This document shows, in pieces, positions 17,444 through 42,745 of a stretch of DNA of 64,000 bases. Numbering within the stretch: position 1 is the stretch's first letter; every line of letters starts with the position of its first letter. The notes beneath the pieces were generated by a model, which was given only the letters and a program-made list of their open reading frames with translations, did no database searches and was not told the origin of the DNA. The position numbers and the translations under genes are program-made. Source of the stretch: Acidimicrobiaceae bacterium (lineage in GTDB: Bacteria > Actinomycetota > Acidimicrobiia > Acidimicrobiales > RAAP-2); contig PMFN01000013.1 of NCBI GenBank assembly GCA_003155135.1, positions 62,001 through 126,000 on the forward strand, read 5' to 3'.

Positions 17444-17851
17444 TCAGAGATCGTCGGCGAAGTCCCGCTCGGCGCCCAGTTCGCGCAGCAGGAACGCCCG
17501 GTCGTAGTACTCGCGCCACTCGGTGACCATCCCGTCTTCAATCTCGAGGACCCCGACGACAGGCATCGAGCCTGTTCTGCCATGCACCACGAAGTTGTCG
17601 GTGCGCTCCAAGAACACTGTTCCGTCGATCACCCCGGCGTTGTGCAGCTCGATGCGGATCTCGGTTGCACCTTCGGAGAGTGCTGCAAATCTTGTGCGGA
17701 GCGACTCGCGCCCGACGGTTGCCTCCGCCTCCATCATTGAGTGGAGGGAGCCATTGGGGGCGAACAACTCGAGCACCCCCTCCCAGTCCATCGCGTTCCA
17801 CGCGTCGACCATTTCTCTGGCCGTCGCAAGCTTCTCGGCATCGGACTCCAT
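17444..17851 (-). CDS. SnoaL-like / NTF2-fold protein
   Basis: The 135-residue protein has the NTF2-like cone pattern: an N-terminal helix with AREMVDAWNAMDWEGVLELF, a central sheet and the closing strand GMVTEWREYYDRAFLL. This is the family of SnoaL cyclases, limonene-1,2-epoxide hydrolase and many small isomerases. GGAGAAGAGGGGGAAG precedes the ATG. It is the last gene of the Rieske-oxygenase run on this strand and may process a ring-opened or hydroxylated intermediate. The specific reaction is unknown. Confidence 0.78.
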   Translation of the reverse strand: MESDAEKLATAREMVDAWNAMDWEGVLELFAPNGSLHSMMEAEATVGRESLRTRFAALSEGATEIRIELHNAGVIDGTVFLERTDNFVVHGRTGSMPVVGVLEIEDGMVTEWREYYDRAFLLRELGAERDFADDL

Positions 17852-17928: not shown

Positions 17929-18714
17929 CTACAACGTGGTGACGATGCCCCCATCGACGGGCAGCACCACGCCGGTGATCCATGCCCCGGCAGCCGAAGC
18001 GAGGTAGATGGCGGCCCCGGCAATGTCCTGCGGCCGGCCGAGGCGCCCGAGCGGCGAAGCGCGTGCCAGCTCCGGGGCGTGGTCGGCGAGCGTGTGCGCC
18101 ATCATCTTGGTCTCGAAGGGTCCCGGTGCGATGGCATTCACGGTGATGTGGTCGGGGCCCAGTCTTCCGGCGAGCACTCGGGTCAGATGGTGCAACGCCG
18201 CCTTGCTCGCCGAATACGAGTAGGTCTCCTCGGCCCACGGCTCCCCGCCCGGCGCGTGGATTCCGTCCACCGAGCCGATATTGATGATGCGCGCCGGCGC
18301 ATCGCTCGTGGCGCCTTCCCGCAGTGGTCCGAGGAGGGCCTGGGTCAGGTAGAAGACGCCCTTTAGGTTGACGTCGAGCACCTTGTCCCACGCGGTGGAT
18401 GGGAAGTCGTCGACCGGTGCCCCCCACGTGGTGCCGGCGTTATTCACGAGGATGTCGAGCGGTCCGACCGCCGCATGCGCTGCTCCAGCGAGGCGCACAC
18501 ATTCGTCATGGCGGGCGAGGTCGGCGGGAATGGCGATGCATCGGCCGAACTTGGAGAGCTCGGCGGCCGCCTCGTCACAGACCTCTGCGTTGCGCGACGA
18601 GATGATCGTCGTGGCTCCCGCACGCATGAAGCCGTCGGCGATCATGCGCCCGATGCCGCGGCCGCCGCCGGTGACCAAGGCCGTTTTCCCTTCGAGCGAA
18701 AAAAGGTCATCCAT
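17929..18714 (-). CDS. Short-chain dehydrogenase/reductase (SDR)
   Basis: A 261-residue classical SDR: TGGGRGIG at 15-22, NNAG at 91-94, Ser148 and Tyr167-x3-Lys171. AGGAGG lies seven bases before the ATG. It lies between an acyl-CoA synthetase and a SnoaL-like gene in the same orientation, suggesting oxidation or reduction of a hydroxylated product of the upstream Rieske oxygenase. The C-terminal VVLPVDGG is typical of 3-oxoacyl reductase-like SDRs. Confidence 0.88.
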   Translation of the reverse strand: MDDLFSLEGKTALVTGGGRGIGRMIADGFMRAGATTIISSRNAEVCDEAAAELSKFGRCIAIPADLARHDECVRLAGAAHAAVGPLDILVNNAGTTWGAPVDDFPSTAWDKVLDVNLKGVFYLTQALLGPLREGATSDAPARIINIGSVDGIHAPGGEPWAEETYSYSASKAALHHLTRVLAGRLGPDHITVNAIAPGPFETKMMAHTLADHAPELARASPLGRLGRPQDIAGAAIYLASAAGAWITGVVLPVDGGIVTTL

Positions 18715-18772: not shown

Positions 18773-20332
18773 CTAGTTGATCCGACGGTCGCTGCCGGCC
18801 CAGTAGGGGTCCCGGAGTGTGCGGCGCAGCACCTTCCCCGAGGCATTGCGCGGCAGTGCGTCCACCCCCACCACGCTCCGGGGGCACTTGTAATGCGCCA
18901 GCTTCGACCGGCTGAACTCGATGAGGGCACCTTCATCGACCGCGTGTCCGGGGGCAGGTACGACGAAGGCAATGGGCGTCTCGCCCCATCGGTCGTCGGG
19001 GACGCTGATGACCGCCACCTCTGCAACCGAGGGGTGATCCTGGAGCACCGCCTCCACCTCGGCGGGATAGATGTTCTCCCCGCCCGAGACGATCATGTCC
19101 TTCAGTCGGTCGTGTAGGAAGATGTAGCCCTCGTCGTCGATGTGGCCGAGGTCTCCGGTGCGGAACCAGCCGTTGGACCGCAAAACGTCGGCTGTCGCCT
19201 CAGGTGCATTCCAATACCCCTCCATCAGTCGCTCGGTCTGTGCCCAGAGCTCTCCCACCTCGCCCGGGGCTACCTCGAGCCCGGTCTCGGTGTCGACAAC
19301 CTTGAGCACCACGCCCGGACGGGCCCGCCCGCACGACCGGAGGCGTGCGAGCTTCGTTGTATCTCGGAGTGCGCCTGCGTGGTCGTCATCGTCGAGAAGA
19401 GCGAGGACGCCAGTGGTCTCTGTGAGGCCGTAGACCTGGAGAAGTCGGCAGTCGAATCGCTCGATGGCGGCTTTGAGGATGTGTTCGGTGATCGGAGCGG
19501 CGCCATAAGAGACAGTTCGCAACGTCGAGAGGTCGGTCTCGGGCCACGGAGTGGCCTCCACGAGGCCCTGCAGCATCACGGAGGCGAGTATCAGGTTGGT
19601 AACGCCAAAGCGCACCACGTCCGCCAGGGTGGCTGCGGGACTGGCGTCGTTCTCGATGATCAGGCACCCTCCCCGCCACAGTGCGCCGAGGGCCGTTCCG
19701 ACCCCGGCGATGTGGAACATCGGGAGAACGCACAGGACGACTGAGGTCTCGTCGAGCTGCCAGACGTCAGCCGTGTCGGGAATGGTTGCGGCGATGGCGG
19801 CATTGGTCAGCATCGCCCCCTTGGGCCGACCGGTCGTTCCCGAGGTGTAGAGCTGCAACGCGACGTCGCCGGGAGCAGGAGGCGTGGCACCGGGCGCGTT
19901 GACCTGTGCGTCCGGCCACGAGGTCCAAGACGCCTCGCCGTCGCCCACCACCACGACCTCTCGCACCGATTTGGGAAGGGGTGAGGGCAGCGTGTCACGC
20001 AGGTCCTCGGCGACGAAGACGATCTTCGCCTCGCTGTCGCGCAGCACATAGTCGAGCTCGCTCGGGTGCAGCCGCCAGTTGGCGATGGTCAGCACCATGC
20101 CGGCTTTGGCCGCGCCGATCAACAGCTCGACGCAAAACACGCTGTTCTTGCCGATGAAGGCGACGTGGTCCTGGCGTTCGAGGCCAAAGGAGGTGAGACC
20201 GTTGGCGACCCGGTTGGAGGCTCGTTCGAGCTGCGCGTAGGTGGCCTTCCGGGAGCCGTCGCGCACCGCGAGTGTTCCGGGTGCCCCTGAGAAGGCGAGA
20301 TCGGCGATCACAAAGGAACGATGGACGCTCAC
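18773..20332 (-). CDS. Acyl-CoA synthetase (AMP-forming)
   Basis: This ligase has P-loop YTSGTTGRPKGAM, WFRTGDLGHIDDEGY and NASGKVLRR. GTG at 20332 gives 519 residues beginning VSVHRSFVIADLAF, where similarity to the family begins, with GGGGAA upstream. A GTG at 20431 overlapping the previous stop would add 33 residues of no recognisable homology. It is the third gene of the Rieske run and probably activates an acid substrate or product. Confidence 0.88.
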   Translation of the reverse strand: MSVHRSFVIADLAFSGAPGTLAVRDGSRKATYAQLERASNRVANGLTSFGLERQDHVAFIGKNSVFCVELLIGAAKAGMVLTIANWRLHPSELDYVLRDSEAKIVFVAEDLRDTLPSPLPKSVREVVVVGDGEASWTSWPDAQVNAPGATPPAPGDVALQLYTSGTTGRPKGAMLTNAAIAATIPDTADVWQLDETSVVLCVLPMFHIAGVGTALGALWRGGCLIIENDASPAATLADVVRFGVTNLILASVMLQGLVEATPWPETDLSTLRTVSYGAAPITEHILKAAIERFDCRLLQVYGLTETTGVLALLDDDDHAGALRDTTKLARLRSCGRARPGVVLKVVDTETGLEVAPGEVGELWAQTERLMEGYWNAPEATADVLRSNGWFRTGDLGHIDDEGYIFLHDRLKDMIVSGGENIYPAEVEAVLQDHPSVAEVAVISVPDDRWGETPIAFVVPAPGHAVDEGALIEFSRSKLAHYKCPRSVVGVDALPRNASGKVLRRTLRDPYWAGSDRRIN

Positions 20333-20424
20333 GGTTTCCCCGTCCTGGTCACGGAGCGATGGCGGCGACCCGGGGCGCCACTGTCGCGGTCTCGAGGATG
20401 TGAGTGGGATCGACGGCTCGTCAT

Positions 20425-20871
20425 TCAACACAGCCCATAGATCTCGTAGGTCACCCCGTCGACCGCCGGCGTACCGAGGCCGACTGCTTGGATGTTGTTC
20501 AGCCAGGTGTATCTCACTTCCGAGGACTGGAAGGTCGGGGCGACGCGTGGCCCTCTCCCGGAGGGCCCCTCATAGATCCCCTGGTACTCCATGAGGATGA
20601 GGGCGCCATCGCCTGCGTCGAGCATCATGCGAACATCGAGGTGGGAGACGCCGGTGGCACGGACCGTCACCCAATCGGACCCGCCCGGTAGCACGGTTGC
20701 GGTGAGGCGAGCCCCCTCGGCGGTCCCTCCCATGATCCGGCAGAGCACTCGTGTCCCCTCGGGTCCGTCGTGGAGCACCGTGCGGCGGGACAGCTCGAGC
20801 CGCAGCCTGAAGAGGTGTTCGGCCGCCAGTGTCGTGGCCTGGGCCCCTTTGTCCTTCCCCTCCGAACTCAC
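20425..20871 (-). CDS. DUF3237 family protein
   Basis: The 148-residue protein begins with GTG in a GTGA overlap with the Rieske oxygenase stop. It matches the DUF3237 (UPF0311) pattern: an N-terminal HLFRLRLEL strand, central GGSDWVTVRATGVSHLDVRM and a C-terminal WLNNIQAVGLG segment. The family is predicted to form a small beta-barrel and has no established activity. Tight coupling with an oxygenase points to handling of its product or substrate. Confidence 0.8.
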   Translation of the reverse strand: MSSEGKDKGAQATTLAAEHLFRLRLELSRRTVLHDGPEGTRVLCRIMGGTAEGARLTATVLPGGSDWVTVRATGVSHLDVRMMLDAGDGALILMEYQGIYEGPSGRGPRVAPTFQSSEVRYTWLNNIQAVGLGTPAVDGVTYEIYGLC

Positions 20872-22175
20872 TCGCCGAACAGCAACTGGTCGAGGACCTG
20901 GTGGAAGTGCAGGACGCGGATCTCCTGCTCGGAGAGCAGGATGCTCTCGAGCCCGTCCGAATGCATCCCGAGCTGCACGTTGGGAAGGGCGCTGAAATCC
21001 TGGTCCGGGACGCGGCCGACCTCGGTTCCCTCGTCGACGGCCGCGTGCCGGGCTGCCCGCCGCTCGGAGCGCTCCTCGTCGCTCAACCAGTTGAAGATGA
21101 ACATGTCGAAGTAGCACCGCTCGGCATCGGTGGCGTCGGGTCGGATCCGAGCGGTGATGAAGTGGCCGGCGTAGACGTTGCACACGGTGTTCGGGAACAA
21201 GAAGTAGTGGTGGTCGTCCACCATCTGCTCGTCGCTCAGCCCTGAGTAGTCCCGGCCCTGAGCCTCCCCCTCGATGCGGCCGACTTCGAGCAGGGCCTGG
21301 CGGACCGGGACGCCGTCACGGAGCGAGGCCTTGCCGCCCTCCTCCATGAAGTACTCCGACTGGCGGAGCAGCTTGCCGTGGAAACCCGAGCCGGCGCGCG
21401 CCAGTTCGTCGATGACCACCTGCTCGCTGTGGTCGCGCAAGCGGGGACTGGCGACACCCATGGGCATGTACATGGCGCTGTGCCGACCGAGCAGCTCGTA
21501 GGTGGTGTTGACGTCATCGAGAACCTTGAGGAGTTGGGGGTGGACACCCTGGAGGTGGTACACGTCGAGGAACCCGTCGACGATGGTCTTCCAGTTGGCC
21601 GCCAGCGGCATCGTGACGCTGCGAGTGCGGGTGTGCTCCCCGAAGTGGTAGGGGGCGAGCCGTTCGGTGAGGGGCGAGAGATAGTCCAAGAGCGACTCGG
21701 CCTTACTGTCGAGATTGACGAAGACGAAACCCTCCCAAATCTCGCAGCGGACCGAGTTGAGTGAGAAGCAGGCATCGTCGAAGTCGGGGAACCCGTCGCG
21801 GTCGGGGACGTGCTTGAGGTCGCCCCGCAGGTCCCAGGTCCAGCGGTGATACGGGCAGGCGATGTCCTCTCGGGCGGTGCCGGTTCCCGAACGGAGCCGG
21901 TTCCCACGGTGCTGGCACACGTTGTGGAAGGCCCGCACTACCCCGTCGTCGCCGCGGAGCACCAACACGGACTGGTCGCCGACCTGATACTCCACGTAAC
22001 TTCCCGGGTTTGGGAGGTCCTCTTCCAGACAGGCCCACTGCCAAACCCTCTTCCAGACCTGATTCTGTTCGAGCCGCCAGAGTTCCTCGGAGATGTAGCG
22101 CTCCGTTGGCACTCGGCCACCGATTGCGTCGACGCGAAGCGCACGCAGGCCAACAGAGGTCTCGGTTGTTGTCAC
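20868..22175 (-). CDS. Rieske non-heme iron ring-hydroxylating oxygenase, alpha subunit
   Basis: The 435-residue oxygenase has a Rieske [2Fe-2S] site Cys87-x-His89 and Cys107-x2-His110, and a mononuclear-iron site with His207 and His212 in DVYHLQGVH. The helix near residue 390 (HSDGLESILLSEQE) should supply the acidic ligand. AAGGGGGCAGCT precedes the GTG. It dioxygenates or demethylates an aromatic or alicyclic substrate. No ferredoxin, reductase or beta subunit lies nearby, so electrons must come from elsewhere. A palindromic operator lies 37 bases upstream. Confidence 0.9.
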   Translation of the reverse strand: MTTTETSVGLRALRVDAIGGRVPTERYISEELWRLEQNQVWKRVWQWACLEEDLPNPGSYVEYQVGDQSVLVLRGDDGVVRAFHNVCQHRGNRLRSGTGTAREDIACPYHRWTWDLRGDLKHVPDRDGFPDFDDACFSLNSVRCEIWEGFVFVNLDSKAESLLDYLSPLTERLAPYHFGEHTRTRSVTMPLAANWKTIVDGFLDVYHLQGVHPQLLKVLDDVNTTYELLGRHSAMYMPMGVASPRLRDHSEQVVIDELARAGSGFHGKLLRQSEYFMEEGGKASLRDGVPVRQALLEVGRIEGEAQGRDYSGLSDEQMVDDHHYFLFPNTVCNVYAGHFITARIRPDATDAERCYFDMFIFNWLSDEERSERRAARHAAVDEGTEVGRVPDQDFSALPNVQLGMHSDGLESILLSEQEIRVLHFHQVLDQLLFGE

Positions 22176-22211
22176 AGCTGCCCCCTTGAGTCCACGCTGC
22201 CAGCTAACGAT

Positions 22212-22234
22212 ATTCCTGACATGATGTCAAGAAT
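22212..22234 (-). promoter_or_regulatory. 23-bp palindrome, probable TetR operator of the Rieske operon
   Basis: TGACAT and ATGTCA flank a single central G at 22223; outward of one mismatch the arms continue with ATTC and GAAT, so 10 of 11 pairs match. It lies between the TetR gene and the Rieske start, both on the minus strand. Length and symmetry suit a TetR dimer; which protein binds is inferred from proximity. Confidence 0.65.
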
Positions 22235-22261
22235 GTACCGTCTACCCTGCTGAGCGGCCGC

Positions 22262-22951
22262 TCATTCGGCTGGTTCGGGCAGGCCGATCGCCCTCGCCCA
22301 GATCCGCGTAAGCGTGTCGATGGCCGCACCCTCGTCGACGAGCTGGTTCAAGATGTAACAGCCACGTGCGAAGTCATCGACCATCCCTCCGAGGGCATAG
22401 CCGGCGAGCTCGGCGTCGAGCGCCACATCGCCGGTGGCGAGGAGGCGTTGGCGAATGGCTGCAGTGAGGCGCAAACCGAAGCGGGCGCGTACCTCGATCC
22501 TCAGTGCGAGGAAGGAGGGATTCAGCGACACTGCCTGCTCGAAAACCCGGATCATCGGTGCACGGTCCCGGTAGGCATGCATGAACTGGCGCACGGTCGA
22601 TTCGAGCATCAGGTACGGGGAGGTTCCTCGCCCTTGGGGGGCGGCCGACGCCTCGTAGAGGTCGTCGACGAGCTGCTCAACGAGCACCGCCAAGATGTCG
22701 TCCTTCGAGTCGAAATAGGTATAAAAGGTCGCTCGCGAGACGTGTGCCCGCTGGGCGATGTCCTCGACCCGAGTCTCGAAGTAGCCCTGGTCGGCGAATG
22801 TGCTCCGAGCGGCGTCTAGGAGGTCGGATTGACGCCGCCGGCCCTTCGGCGTGGGAGCGTCGCTCAGCTGTACTCGTCCAGTCGGTTCCACCAGCGCCAG
22901 AGGCGAGCCAGTCTGCCCCTTCGCTGTCGGGCCTGCGGGATTGCGTGCCAC
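22262..22951 (-). CDS. TetR-family transcriptional regulator
   Basis: This 229-residue regulator has a TetR helix-turn-helix at about 62-81 (VEDIAQRAHVSRATFYTYF), preceded by a basic, unstructured 40-residue tail. The C-terminal ligand domain is typical in length. The GTG at 22951 has a -10-like TACGCT exactly six bases upstream, so translation may be leaderless. It lies directly upstream of the Rieske operon and its palindrome, making it the candidate repressor. The ligand is likely an aromatic acid or CoA ester, by inference. Confidence 0.88.
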   Translation of the reverse strand: MARNPAGPTAKGQTGSPLALVEPTGRVQLSDAPTPKGRRRQSDLLDAARSTFADQGYFETRVEDIAQRAHVSRATFYTYFDSKDDILAVLVEQLVDDLYEASAAPQGRGTSPYLMLESTVRQFMHAYRDRAPMIRVFEQAVSLNPSFLALRIEVRARFGLRLTAAIRQRLLATGDVALDAELAGYALGGMVDDFARGCYILNQLVDEGAAIDTLTRIWARAIGLPEPAE

Positions 22952-23021: not shown

Positions 23022-23483
23022 GTGGCCACCATGACGGACCAAGAGCGCGACGAGTTTCTCCGTGAGTCGAGGCTCTGTACCCTCGGCATCGGCCGAGTAG
23101 GGAAAGGCCCGGTGCTCGCACCCGTCTGGTATCGCTTCTCCGAGTCGCGGATCTTCGAGATGTGCATCGGCGAGGCTTCGGCGAAGGCCACGCGGCTGCG
23201 GGCGGAGGGCCGCGCCACCCTCTCGGTCCTCGACCCGGGGCGCCCAGGGCCTTACCGCTACGTGACCGCCGAGGGTCCGGTCGAGCTCGTGGCACTGGGC
23301 GAGGACACCGAACGCGAGATTCTTGCCATGTCGACGCGTTACCTCGGCGAGCGCGGCGGCTTGCGTTACACAGAGCAGTTCATGGAACGACTTCGACGCG
23401 ATGACCTCCACGACGGGCATGGCGACCGCGAGGTGATGGTGAAATTGACGCCCGAGCGGTGGCGTACCGACGTCCTCGGATGA
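23022..23483 (+). CDS. Pyridoxamine 5'-phosphate oxidase-fold (PPOX/F420-type) protein
   Basis: This 153-residue protein has the split beta-barrel flavin/F420-binding pattern: FLRESRLCTLGIGRVGKGP near residue 12, VWYRF and a central RATLSVLDPG strand, ending REVMVKLTPERWRTDVLG. The family binds FMN or F420 and reduces diverse small molecules or protects against oxidants. GTG 23022 is preferred because a -10 hexamer lies six bases upstream; ATG 23031 is possible. It diverges from the TetR gene and may share its control. Confidence 0.78.
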   Translation: MATMTDQERDEFLRESRLCTLGIGRVGKGPVLAPVWYRFSESRIFEMCIGEASAKATRLRAEGRATLSVLDPGRPGPYRYVTAEGPVELVALGEDTEREILAMSTRYLGERGGLRYTEQFMERLRRDDLHDGHGDREVMVKLTPERWRTDVLG

Positions 23484-39213: not shown

Positions 39214-39617
39214 CAGTTCCTCGATTCCATGATGGTGCGGAGCTCGTCGAGGGCGCCGGCTGTTCCGCCGCCAATGAGGAGTGCCAAGGTGGCAGGGTCG
39301 GCGTCGGTGCTGTAAGCGACGAGGCTGGTGCCGTCCCCGAGGTCGAAGACATCGATGGTCCCGAGGTGCTCGTGGAACATCGGGGCATCGATGCGGTACT
39401 GGAAGCGGCGCAGGAGCGGGTCGACGGTGAGGAGGCGCTCGGGTATCGGCAGGCCGGTGGCGGTCGTGACGACCCGCTCGTCGCCGTCCACCGCCGACGA
39501 CACGATGCCGGGGAACCACTCGCACAGGCGCGCCGGGTCGCCCACCAGCTCCCAGACGTCGTCGGCGGGAGCGTCGATCCGCTTCTCGTAGCGGACCGAC
39601 CCGCGCCTCCCGTTCAC
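39213..39617 (-). CDS. SRPBCC (START-like) domain protein
   Basis: The 134-residue protein has the SRPBCC pattern: RYEKRIDAPADDVWELVGDP at the N-terminus, a bent sheet and a C-terminal helix ending DELRTIMESRN. The family binds hydrophobic ligands and includes polyketide cyclases. The GTG start overlaps the TetR stop by four bases. It probably binds or isomerises a hydrophobic intermediate of the pathway; no catalytic residues can be named. Confidence 0.82.
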   Translation of the reverse strand: MNGRRGSVRYEKRIDAPADDVWELVGDPARLCEWFPGIVSSAVDGDERVVTTATGLPIPERLLTVDPLLRRFQYRIDAPMFHEHLGTIDVFDLGDGTSLVAYSTDADPATLALLIGGGTAGALDELRTIMESRN

Positions 39618-40255
39618 ACCGGCGACTGCTCGCCGTCGAGCAGGGCGGTGAGCGACGCGACGAGCACAGCGGTCATCGCCTCGGCGCCGAGGTCCTGGTC
39701 ACCGATGAGCAGCTGGTAGGACTCGAACGAGCACAGCACGTCGGCAGCGGCGAGCACCGACGCCGCCCGGTCCTGGCCCATGGCCCCGAGCTCCCCGGCG
39801 AAGAGCTTCGCGATCTGGTGGCGGAGGTACGAGCGGGTGTTGCGCAGCTGGGTGGCCAGCACCGGCTGGAACGGCGAGCGAAGGCGTGACACGGTCGCCG
39901 CCGGCGCGATGGCCTCGAAGAGGCGGAGCCGCTGGGCGACGAGGGCGGCGATGCGCTCGGGCAGCGGCGCACCGGGCACGGCCGCGATCGGGACGAGCGG
40001 AAGGGCCCGCTCCAGCTGGCGCCCGAGGGCCGATCGGCTGAGGTCGTCGACGTCTTCGAAGTAGCGGAAGACCGAACGTGGCGAGAGCCCGGCGCGCTCG
40101 GCCACCTCTGAGGAGCTCGGTCGCAGGTTCCCCTCGCCGTAGAGGTCGAGCAGCGCGTCGACCACCGCCTGGCGGTTGCGGTCACGGCGTATGTGGCGCC
40201 CGTCGAGACTGTTCCCTTCGTCCTCGGGTCCGCTCCCCGCGCCCGGATCACTCAC
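39614..40255 (-). CDS. TetR-family transcriptional regulator in the sulfatase operon
   Basis: This 213-residue regulator has a helix-turn-helix at about 49-68 (SEVAERAGLSPRSVFRYFED). GTG 40255 overlaps the DUF2855 stop. Being in the middle of the operon makes it an autoregulator candidate for the 42717-42745 palindrome at the head of the same operon. The ligand is unknown. Confidence 0.87.
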   Translation of the reverse strand: MSDPGAGSGPEDEGNSLDGRHIRRDRNRQAVVDALLDLYGEGNLRPSSSEVAERAGLSPRSVFRYFEDVDDLSRSALGRQLERALPLVPIAAVPGAPLPERIAALVAQRLRLFEAIAPAATVSRLRSPFQPVLATQLRNTRSYLRHQIAKLFAGELGAMGQDRAASVLAAADVLCSFESYQLLIGDQDLGAEAMTAVLVASLTALLDGEQSPV

Positions 40256-41339
40256 GGGCACCGCCCAGGGTGCAGACATGGCCGACGCGAGGGTCGATGT
40301 GGCCGTCGAGCAGCTCCCGGTAGGTCGACTCGACCGACGCGGCGCCGTCCACGTGGCGGACATCGAGCCACCCGTCGACCCAGGGGATGAAGCGCTCCCA
40401 TGCCTCACGGACCGACGCCTCGAAGCCGTCCCGGCCCCACTCGCGGCGCCGCTTGGCGATCTGGTCCGGCGCGAAGAGCAGCGTGGGTCGCGGGCCCTCG
40501 AGGGCGATGTCGCCGACCTCCTCATTCTCCCAGTGCGTGTCGCCGACGACCATCGAGTAGGCCAGATCGGCACCGAAATGGGCGTGCACGGAGGCGGTCA
40601 CGTCGCGACGGCCGGCGACGTCGATGTACACGGCGGTGCCGGTCGGCAGCTCATCGATGTTCTCGTAGGTGACGACCTTTTCGTAGCAGCCGAGGGACCG
40701 GACGAACTCTGCGTTGGACTCCGATGTGAGGCCCACCACCTCGATCCCCTCGCGCCCGGCCAAGAGGAAGGCCGCACCGATGGCGGTCTTCGCCGACGCA
40801 GACGAGATCACGGCGGTGCTGGCGCCGTAGAGCCCGTGGTCGCCGAGGAAGTCGTCGACGACGAAGGAGGTGACGAACAGGGGCCACAGCAGCATCTGCT
40901 CGGCCTCATGGGCTGCGTCGTAGATGGGGTCGGCAGCCACGTAGGAGTAGCGGTTGTAGACGCTGGGGAGCGGCTGGCGGTGGGCGGCGACGTCGCTGAA
41001 GCCGCTCTCGTCGAGGCGGCCGGCCTCGACGACGAGCTCGTCGCCCATGGGGAAGTAGCCAAAGACCCGGGTCCCGATGGCGAGGTCGGGGGCCTCGGAC
41101 TCCGCGACCGTGGCGAAGCCCCAGACCGGGACGCGGCCCCAGAACACCCCGTCGCCGTCGGCAGCGGGGAAGAACTGCCAGTAGGACATGGCCTCGCCGA
41201 AGACCGCGTACGTGATGTTGTTCGACGTGAGGGCGAACGATTCCACGTGGAGACGCGCCGCACCATGGTGCAGCGGCGGCGTCGGCTCCTCGAGCACCCG
41301 CACGGTGCGCAGGTCCGAGCGGTCGACCTCAATCTGCAT
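40248..41339 (-). CDS. DUF2855 family protein (MDR-like reductase relative)
   Basis: A 363-residue protein with [19 protein letters not shown] near residue 35 and a Rossmann-like half ([19 protein letters not shown] near 175), the layout of the DUF2855 family related to medium-chain reductases. Zinc ligands of alcohol dehydrogenases are absent. Its start overlaps the DsbA-type gene by 11 bases. It may be an NAD(P)H-dependent quinone or enone reductase; this is inference. Confidence 0.83.
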
Positions 41340-42716: not shown

Positions 42717-42745
42717 AACAGTTGACAGTCGTAATGACAACTGTT
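42717..42745. promoter_or_regulatory. 29-bp palindromic operator overlapping two divergent promoters
   Basis: AACAGTTG and CAACTGTT are perfect 8-bp arms around 13 bases, with further paired CA/TG inside. On the plus strand TTGACA at 42722-42727 is a -35 candidate. On the minus strand TTGTCA with 17-base spacing to TACCTT (42706-42711 region) gives a -35/-10 pair that ends six bases before the ATG at 42705. A bound repressor would block both directions. Confidence 0.65.

Follow-up and report, generated by a model that had tools for sequence, protein, structure and literature searches.

The 23-bp palindrome at positions 22212–22234 of the window (the whole stretch of 64 000 nucleotides analysed here), ATTCCTGACATgATGTCAAGAAT, is on its sequence a putative operator with the core TGACA-N3-TGTCA, and we consider it fairly likely to be that of the adjacent TetR repressor of EthR-like fold, through which the promoter of an oxidative operon of five genes would be controlled. 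A TetR dimer would sit on two TGACAT half-sites; once bound, it would cover the promoter of the Rieske–DUF3237–synthetase–SDR–SnoaL operon and keep the operon silent; a compound of the pathway, or the CoA ester of that compound, would loosen the repressor and release the genes. TetR binding, repression, the promoter position and the ligand are what we infer; the position of the site, its AT-richness, a good ribosome-binding site, the packing of the operon, the TetR_N domain, the uniqueness of the site and the recurrence of its half-site support this reading, whereas the fact that the TetR gene is not divergent to the operon counts against it. Palindrome and TetR are probably a real case of a well-known regulatory kind, an ordinary on/off switch, and even if true the reading would leave the understanding of TetR repression unchanged. 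It would, if true, provide a testable operator and repressor for an uncharacterised Rieske/DUF3237 operon, offer a handle on the substrate of that operon and possibly a sensor part, and suggest a half-site that some members of a hitherto unassigned TetR group may recognise.

The site reads ATTCCTGACAT-g-ATGTCAAGAAT, with 10 of 11 pairs matched and a sole mismatch at C22216/A22230. It sits in an 86-bp gap between the TetR stop codon (22262) and the Rieske GTG (22175), both genes being on the minus strand, 27 bp from the former and 36 bp from the latter. A sequence-only reading had described a 23-bp palindrome around a central G, upstream of the Rieske gene and downstream of TetR: its coordinates and its ten pairs were exact, and the placement is true. 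This two-fold symmetric site falls in the predicted promoter region of the Rieske operon; since TetR is encoded upstream on that strand too, the site would control the operon and not TetR's own promoter.

Read along the minus strand, TetR and the palindrome are followed by five tightly packed genes, coding for a Rieske oxygenase alpha subunit (20868–22175; 435 aa, with an AAGGGGG ribosome-binding site before its GTG), a DUF3237 protein (20425–20871), an AMP-binding acyl-CoA synthetase (18773–20431), an SDR oxidoreductase (17929–18714) and a SnoaL-like protein (17444–17851). The first three overlap end-to-start, the DUF3237 GTG overlapping the Rieske stop (GTGA) and the synthetase gene overlapping the DUF3237 end by 7 bp, and the ATGs of the SDR and SnoaL genes are each preceded by purine-rich ribosome sites. 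The gene content and order proposed beforehand were borne out by the domains detected (TetR_N, Rieske/Ring_hydroxyl_A, DUF3237, AMP-ligase, SDR and SnoaL), all encoded on one strand. Between 5338 and 22175, the window also holds catabolic genes for an ABC branched-chain ATPase, an enoyl-CoA hydratase, a glyoxalase-like protein, a thiolase and several acyl-CoA ligases; given this large catabolic neighbourhood, the Rieske operon may serve as a single branch of a longer pathway.

By raw count, the palindrome is nothing special: the window has nine of equal size and quality, where 20 Markov sequences average 1.35. That it arose by chance and has no function is nevertheless very unlikely in our judgement. 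Chance is favoured by these nine palindromes of equal grade, by the selection of the site by eye among dozens of gaps and by the fact that conservation cannot be shown, no orthologous operon having been found; it is opposed by the recurrence of the half-site beside TetR homologues (described below), by composition and by shuffling. Among the 16 intergenic-centred palindromes of the window scoring at least 8 (crude gene calls), this one alone is AT-rich, with a GC content of 35% versus at least 63% for the other 15 and 69% for the window. Dinucleotide shuffles of the 86-bp gap reached its score in 11 of 3000 cases, and in 17 of 5000 in a second run (about 0.3–0.4%), a significance that becomes modest after correction because the gap was picked out of some dozens. 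The search elsewhere in the genome that had been suggested as a check was run, and the core was found once in 3.14 Mb, the next-nearest place being two mismatches off. Such uniqueness is what one would expect of a local regulator more than of a global one. A REP/MITE-like repeat was ruled out, the site being single-copy.

The neighbouring gene (22262–22951, minus strand, with an alternative later start at GTG 22891) encodes a TetR-family regulator of 229 aa, in which TetR_N (PF00440) was detected at residues 44–88 (58.6 bits, cutoff 24). Its AF2 model (pLDDT 83.2, nine helices) predicts the all-helical fold with a C-terminal ligand/dimer domain that is characteristic of the family. Foldseek matches of this model include EthR, FadR and FasR (E down to 2.4e-8), PDB ranks 1–23 all being EthR (TMt about 0.8). 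No NCBIfam equivalog reached its own cutoff against this protein, the KstR model scoring 20.8 for a cutoff of 280.

EthR of Mycobacterium tuberculosis, whose operator is a longer multi-repeat region, is thus the protein whose fold the modelled TetR matches best. It also controls a monooxygenase gene, as stated in the consulted part of PMC1995591. The window protein is not an EthR orthologue: the two are 22–24% identical, and the window oxygenase operon is co-directional with its regulator, whereas EthR is listed with the TetR regulators that are divergent from their neighbour, at a gap of 75 bp (excerpt of PMC3511530). KstR and KstR2 are described as repressors of the TetR type that control catabolic genes and whose short palindromes lie near start codons, the motif-to-start distance of KstR2 being 22–82 bp for most targets (excerpts of PMC1995591 and PMC3068626), a range in which the 36 bp of the window falls. 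Their motifs as given in those excerpts, TnnAACnnGTTnnA and AnCAAGnnCTTGnT, do not match the window's TGACATnATGTCA. The Streptomyces SCO7222 operator TGGAACGNCGTTCCA is a 15-bp dyad centred on one base and shares the geometry of YTGACATNATGTCAA, but its half-site is another one and the excerpt of PMC3511530 gives three copies in a divergent gap, versus one copy in a co-directional gap here. PheR was dropped as a comparison, being an IclR protein according to the available part of PMC13273656. Among the literature titles and abstract openings listed (20 of 39 for TGACAT/ATGTCA), those on TetR with DUF3237 included, we found no TetR operator of the palindrome's sequence (TTGACAT/ATGTCAA, TGACA/TGTCA or TGACAT/ATGTCA).

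The arrangement of the TetR gene also points to another possible target, as a PPOX-like (PNPOx_N) gene lies divergent to it (23034–23483, plus strand) across a gap of 82 bp. In the Streptomyces survey, TetR genes less than 200 bp from a divergent neighbour most likely regulate that neighbour, a rule within which this gap falls, and co-directional pairs with a gap above 35 bp form an unassigned group of 18% (both from the excerpt of PMC3511530). The TetR might accordingly regulate mainly itself and the PPOX-like gene, the palindrome serving a regulator encoded elsewhere; its own genome yields 16 TetR-like matches, this protein included. We regard this as unlikely, since no palindrome in the divergent gap stands out from shuffles, its best being reached by 3130 of 5000, and the single-copy palindrome fits a local regulator.

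Within the co-directional gap, the distal arm of the palindrome contains TTGACA (22225–22230, minus strand), by sequence a perfect −35 hexamer that may serve as part of the promoter. No convincing −10 element was found 16–18 bp from it, and a sigma-70 scan called no promoter. The palindrome is also the centre of an extended imperfect inverted repeat (22207–22241; outer arms ACGATA and TACCGT, with a 2-nt bulge), whose two mismatches both become G-U on the minus (operon) strand. The operon-strand fold of a 43-nt stretch reached −15.8 kcal/mol (z −4.3; 0 of 200 shuffles), versus −10.0 kcal/mol (z −2.8; 2 of 200) for the opposite strand. These features, together with the place of the hairpin between two co-directional genes, would suit a site that acts as RNA, through a hairpin in a TetR–Rieske transcript affecting termination, processing or translation of the Rieske cistron. 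However, the hairpin lacks a U-tract, no terminator was called on the minus strand and no Rfam family was found there; two transitions both giving G-U on one strand are weak evidence, expected by our estimate about 1 time in 4, and there are no relatives for covariation. Action as RNA is thus distinctly unlikely. An intrinsic terminator was ruled out on the same grounds, as was a known RNA family, the one sub-threshold miRNA match lying elsewhere. Next to the site, a perfect 14-bp GC-rich palindrome, TGAGCGGCCGCTCA (22251–22264), spans the TetR stop codon; as a minus-strand hairpin it has five pairs and is likewise without a U-tract.

Orthologous copies of the operon were sought with both proteins, the full gene set being looked for in the fetched loci. 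TetR matched in 59 of 298 order genomes at E 1e-15 (best non-self identity 41%) and in 16 of 172 family genomes (non-self identities 26–35%), and no operon copy appeared in either set. The Rieske protein matched in 23 of 397 order genomes at E 1e-80, the others being 37–42% identical and again without an operon copy; among 396 phylum genomes at E 1e-95, only its own genome was retrieved. Plasmid searches with the Rieske protein and with TetR found no operon copy, and phages gave five records with weak TetR matches only. With no orthologous operon turning up in the samples of family, order or phylum, direct footprinting of the palindrome is impossible. The closest TetR homologue, in a GTDB MAG (L102; 54% identity), has no Rieske gene adjoining it and no comparable palindrome nearby. 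The 23-mer was absent, within three mismatches, from all nine genomes with TetR homologues, that of L102 among them; around 31 TetR loci, own included, palindromes passing a strict score were mostly GC-rich, and none resembled that at 22212–22234 beyond its own locus.

Looser patterns were more widespread. The 14-mer core occurred with at most one mismatch in 18 of 61 genomes, and the 21-mer with at most two in 9 of 397, own genome counted in both cases and the other eight of the latter all being at two mismatches. Matches elsewhere mostly lay within or adjoining unrelated open reading frames (ORFs). Identical palindromes before unrelated genes without TetR, which had been named as evidence against the operator, were not seen in the own genome, whereas looser TetR-less matches, at one or two mismatches, do occur in other genomes. 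The apparent enrichment of the 14-mer over a reversed control in the 61 genomes was discarded: the reversed pattern is an unfair control because it contains TA steps. A TetR profile run on all 40 pattern-matched loci (L001–L031 and L156–L164) detected the own locus three times, L004, L010 and L159. At L004 (two dyads) and L159 (one dyad), both found by pattern, TGACA-N3-TGTCA lies in the gap that separates a TetR-like ORF from a divergent one, which we take in both cases to be an amidohydrolase from its DADSH start; at L010, about 600 bp separate the TetR from the site. Outside the own genome, the exact dyad was found in 12 places, two of them (L004 and L159) with a TetR-like ORF next to it. 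A further locus (L009, G014:C10:62044–62058) carries TTGACATCCTGTCAAGAAT about 40 bp past a helicase-like ORF, presumably of SNF2 type, with the start of the next ORF 3 bp further on; no TetR was found there.

A test that does not start from the motif was provided by 67 loci chosen by TetR protein similarity (29 from the order, 1 from GTDB, 19 from the family and 18 from plasmids, these last taken by score and diversity out of 443 TetR-matching records). Three near-identical loci were removed, and in the remaining 64 the 300 bp upstream and 260 bp downstream of each TetR homologue were scanned. Exact TGACAT-N0-4-ATGTCA was found at two loci, L167 (a Rhodococcus ruber plasmid) and L182 (a Martelella plasmid), and at three (L167, L182 and L046) when up to one mismatch was allowed; the shuffle means were 0.003 and 0.15, respectively, and none of 300 shuffles reached either observed count. 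TGACAT ranked first among 180 letter permutations of the half-site, and no other half-site with at least four A/T had its exact dyad at two or more loci; many GC-rich ones did, at up to three. TGACA-N3/4-TGTCA gave four sites in two loci, three of them in one L182 promoter, the next-best of 60 permutations giving one. The exact TGACAT dyad was absent at 62 of the 64 loci, and the TGACA dyad at all of 31 remoter GTDB homologues (L103–L133) tested apart.

The R. ruber locus is laid out like the window, with TetR, a 90-bp gap holding the dyad, and a co-directional NAD(P)-dependent oxidoreductase gene, into whose annotated start codon the dyad runs. The TetRs of L167 and L182 are 29–32% identical to that of the window, the spacing at the dyad centre differs (N3 in the window, N4 in both plasmids), and no close plasmid relatives of these two TetRs were found. 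In L182 (NZ_CP054860.1, Martelella sp. NC18 plasmid; 1154–1440), three TGACA-N4-TGTCA dyads lie between the TetR gene and a gene for an ABC substrate-binding protein, the two being divergent. The sequence-only reading had taken TetR and palindrome for a likely repressor–operator unit; the link to TetR is supported in part, and indirectly, by half-site dyads beside some TetR homologues and between TetR-like and divergent ORFs, whereas binding, repression and ligand are inferred. It is possible, if doubtful, that TGACA-N3/4-TGTCA is an operator half-site common to a scattered EthR-fold TetR clade that guards operons of oxidative catabolism, in Actinomycetota as well as on plasmids of proteobacteria; in the layout of the window and of R. 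ruber, an operator past the repressor stop would then switch the enzymes without autoregulation there.

Two other places in the window deserve mention. An ORF at 39614–40573, near DUF2855 and sulfatase genes, has a sub-threshold TetR_N match (20.2 bits, cutoff 24). Further along, at 42717–42745, another AT-rich inverted repeat, AACAGTTGaCA-N7-TGaCAACTGTT, is single-copy in the genome and lies upstream of a sulfatase domain; it probably also serves as an operator, whose half-site differs from that at 22212–22234.
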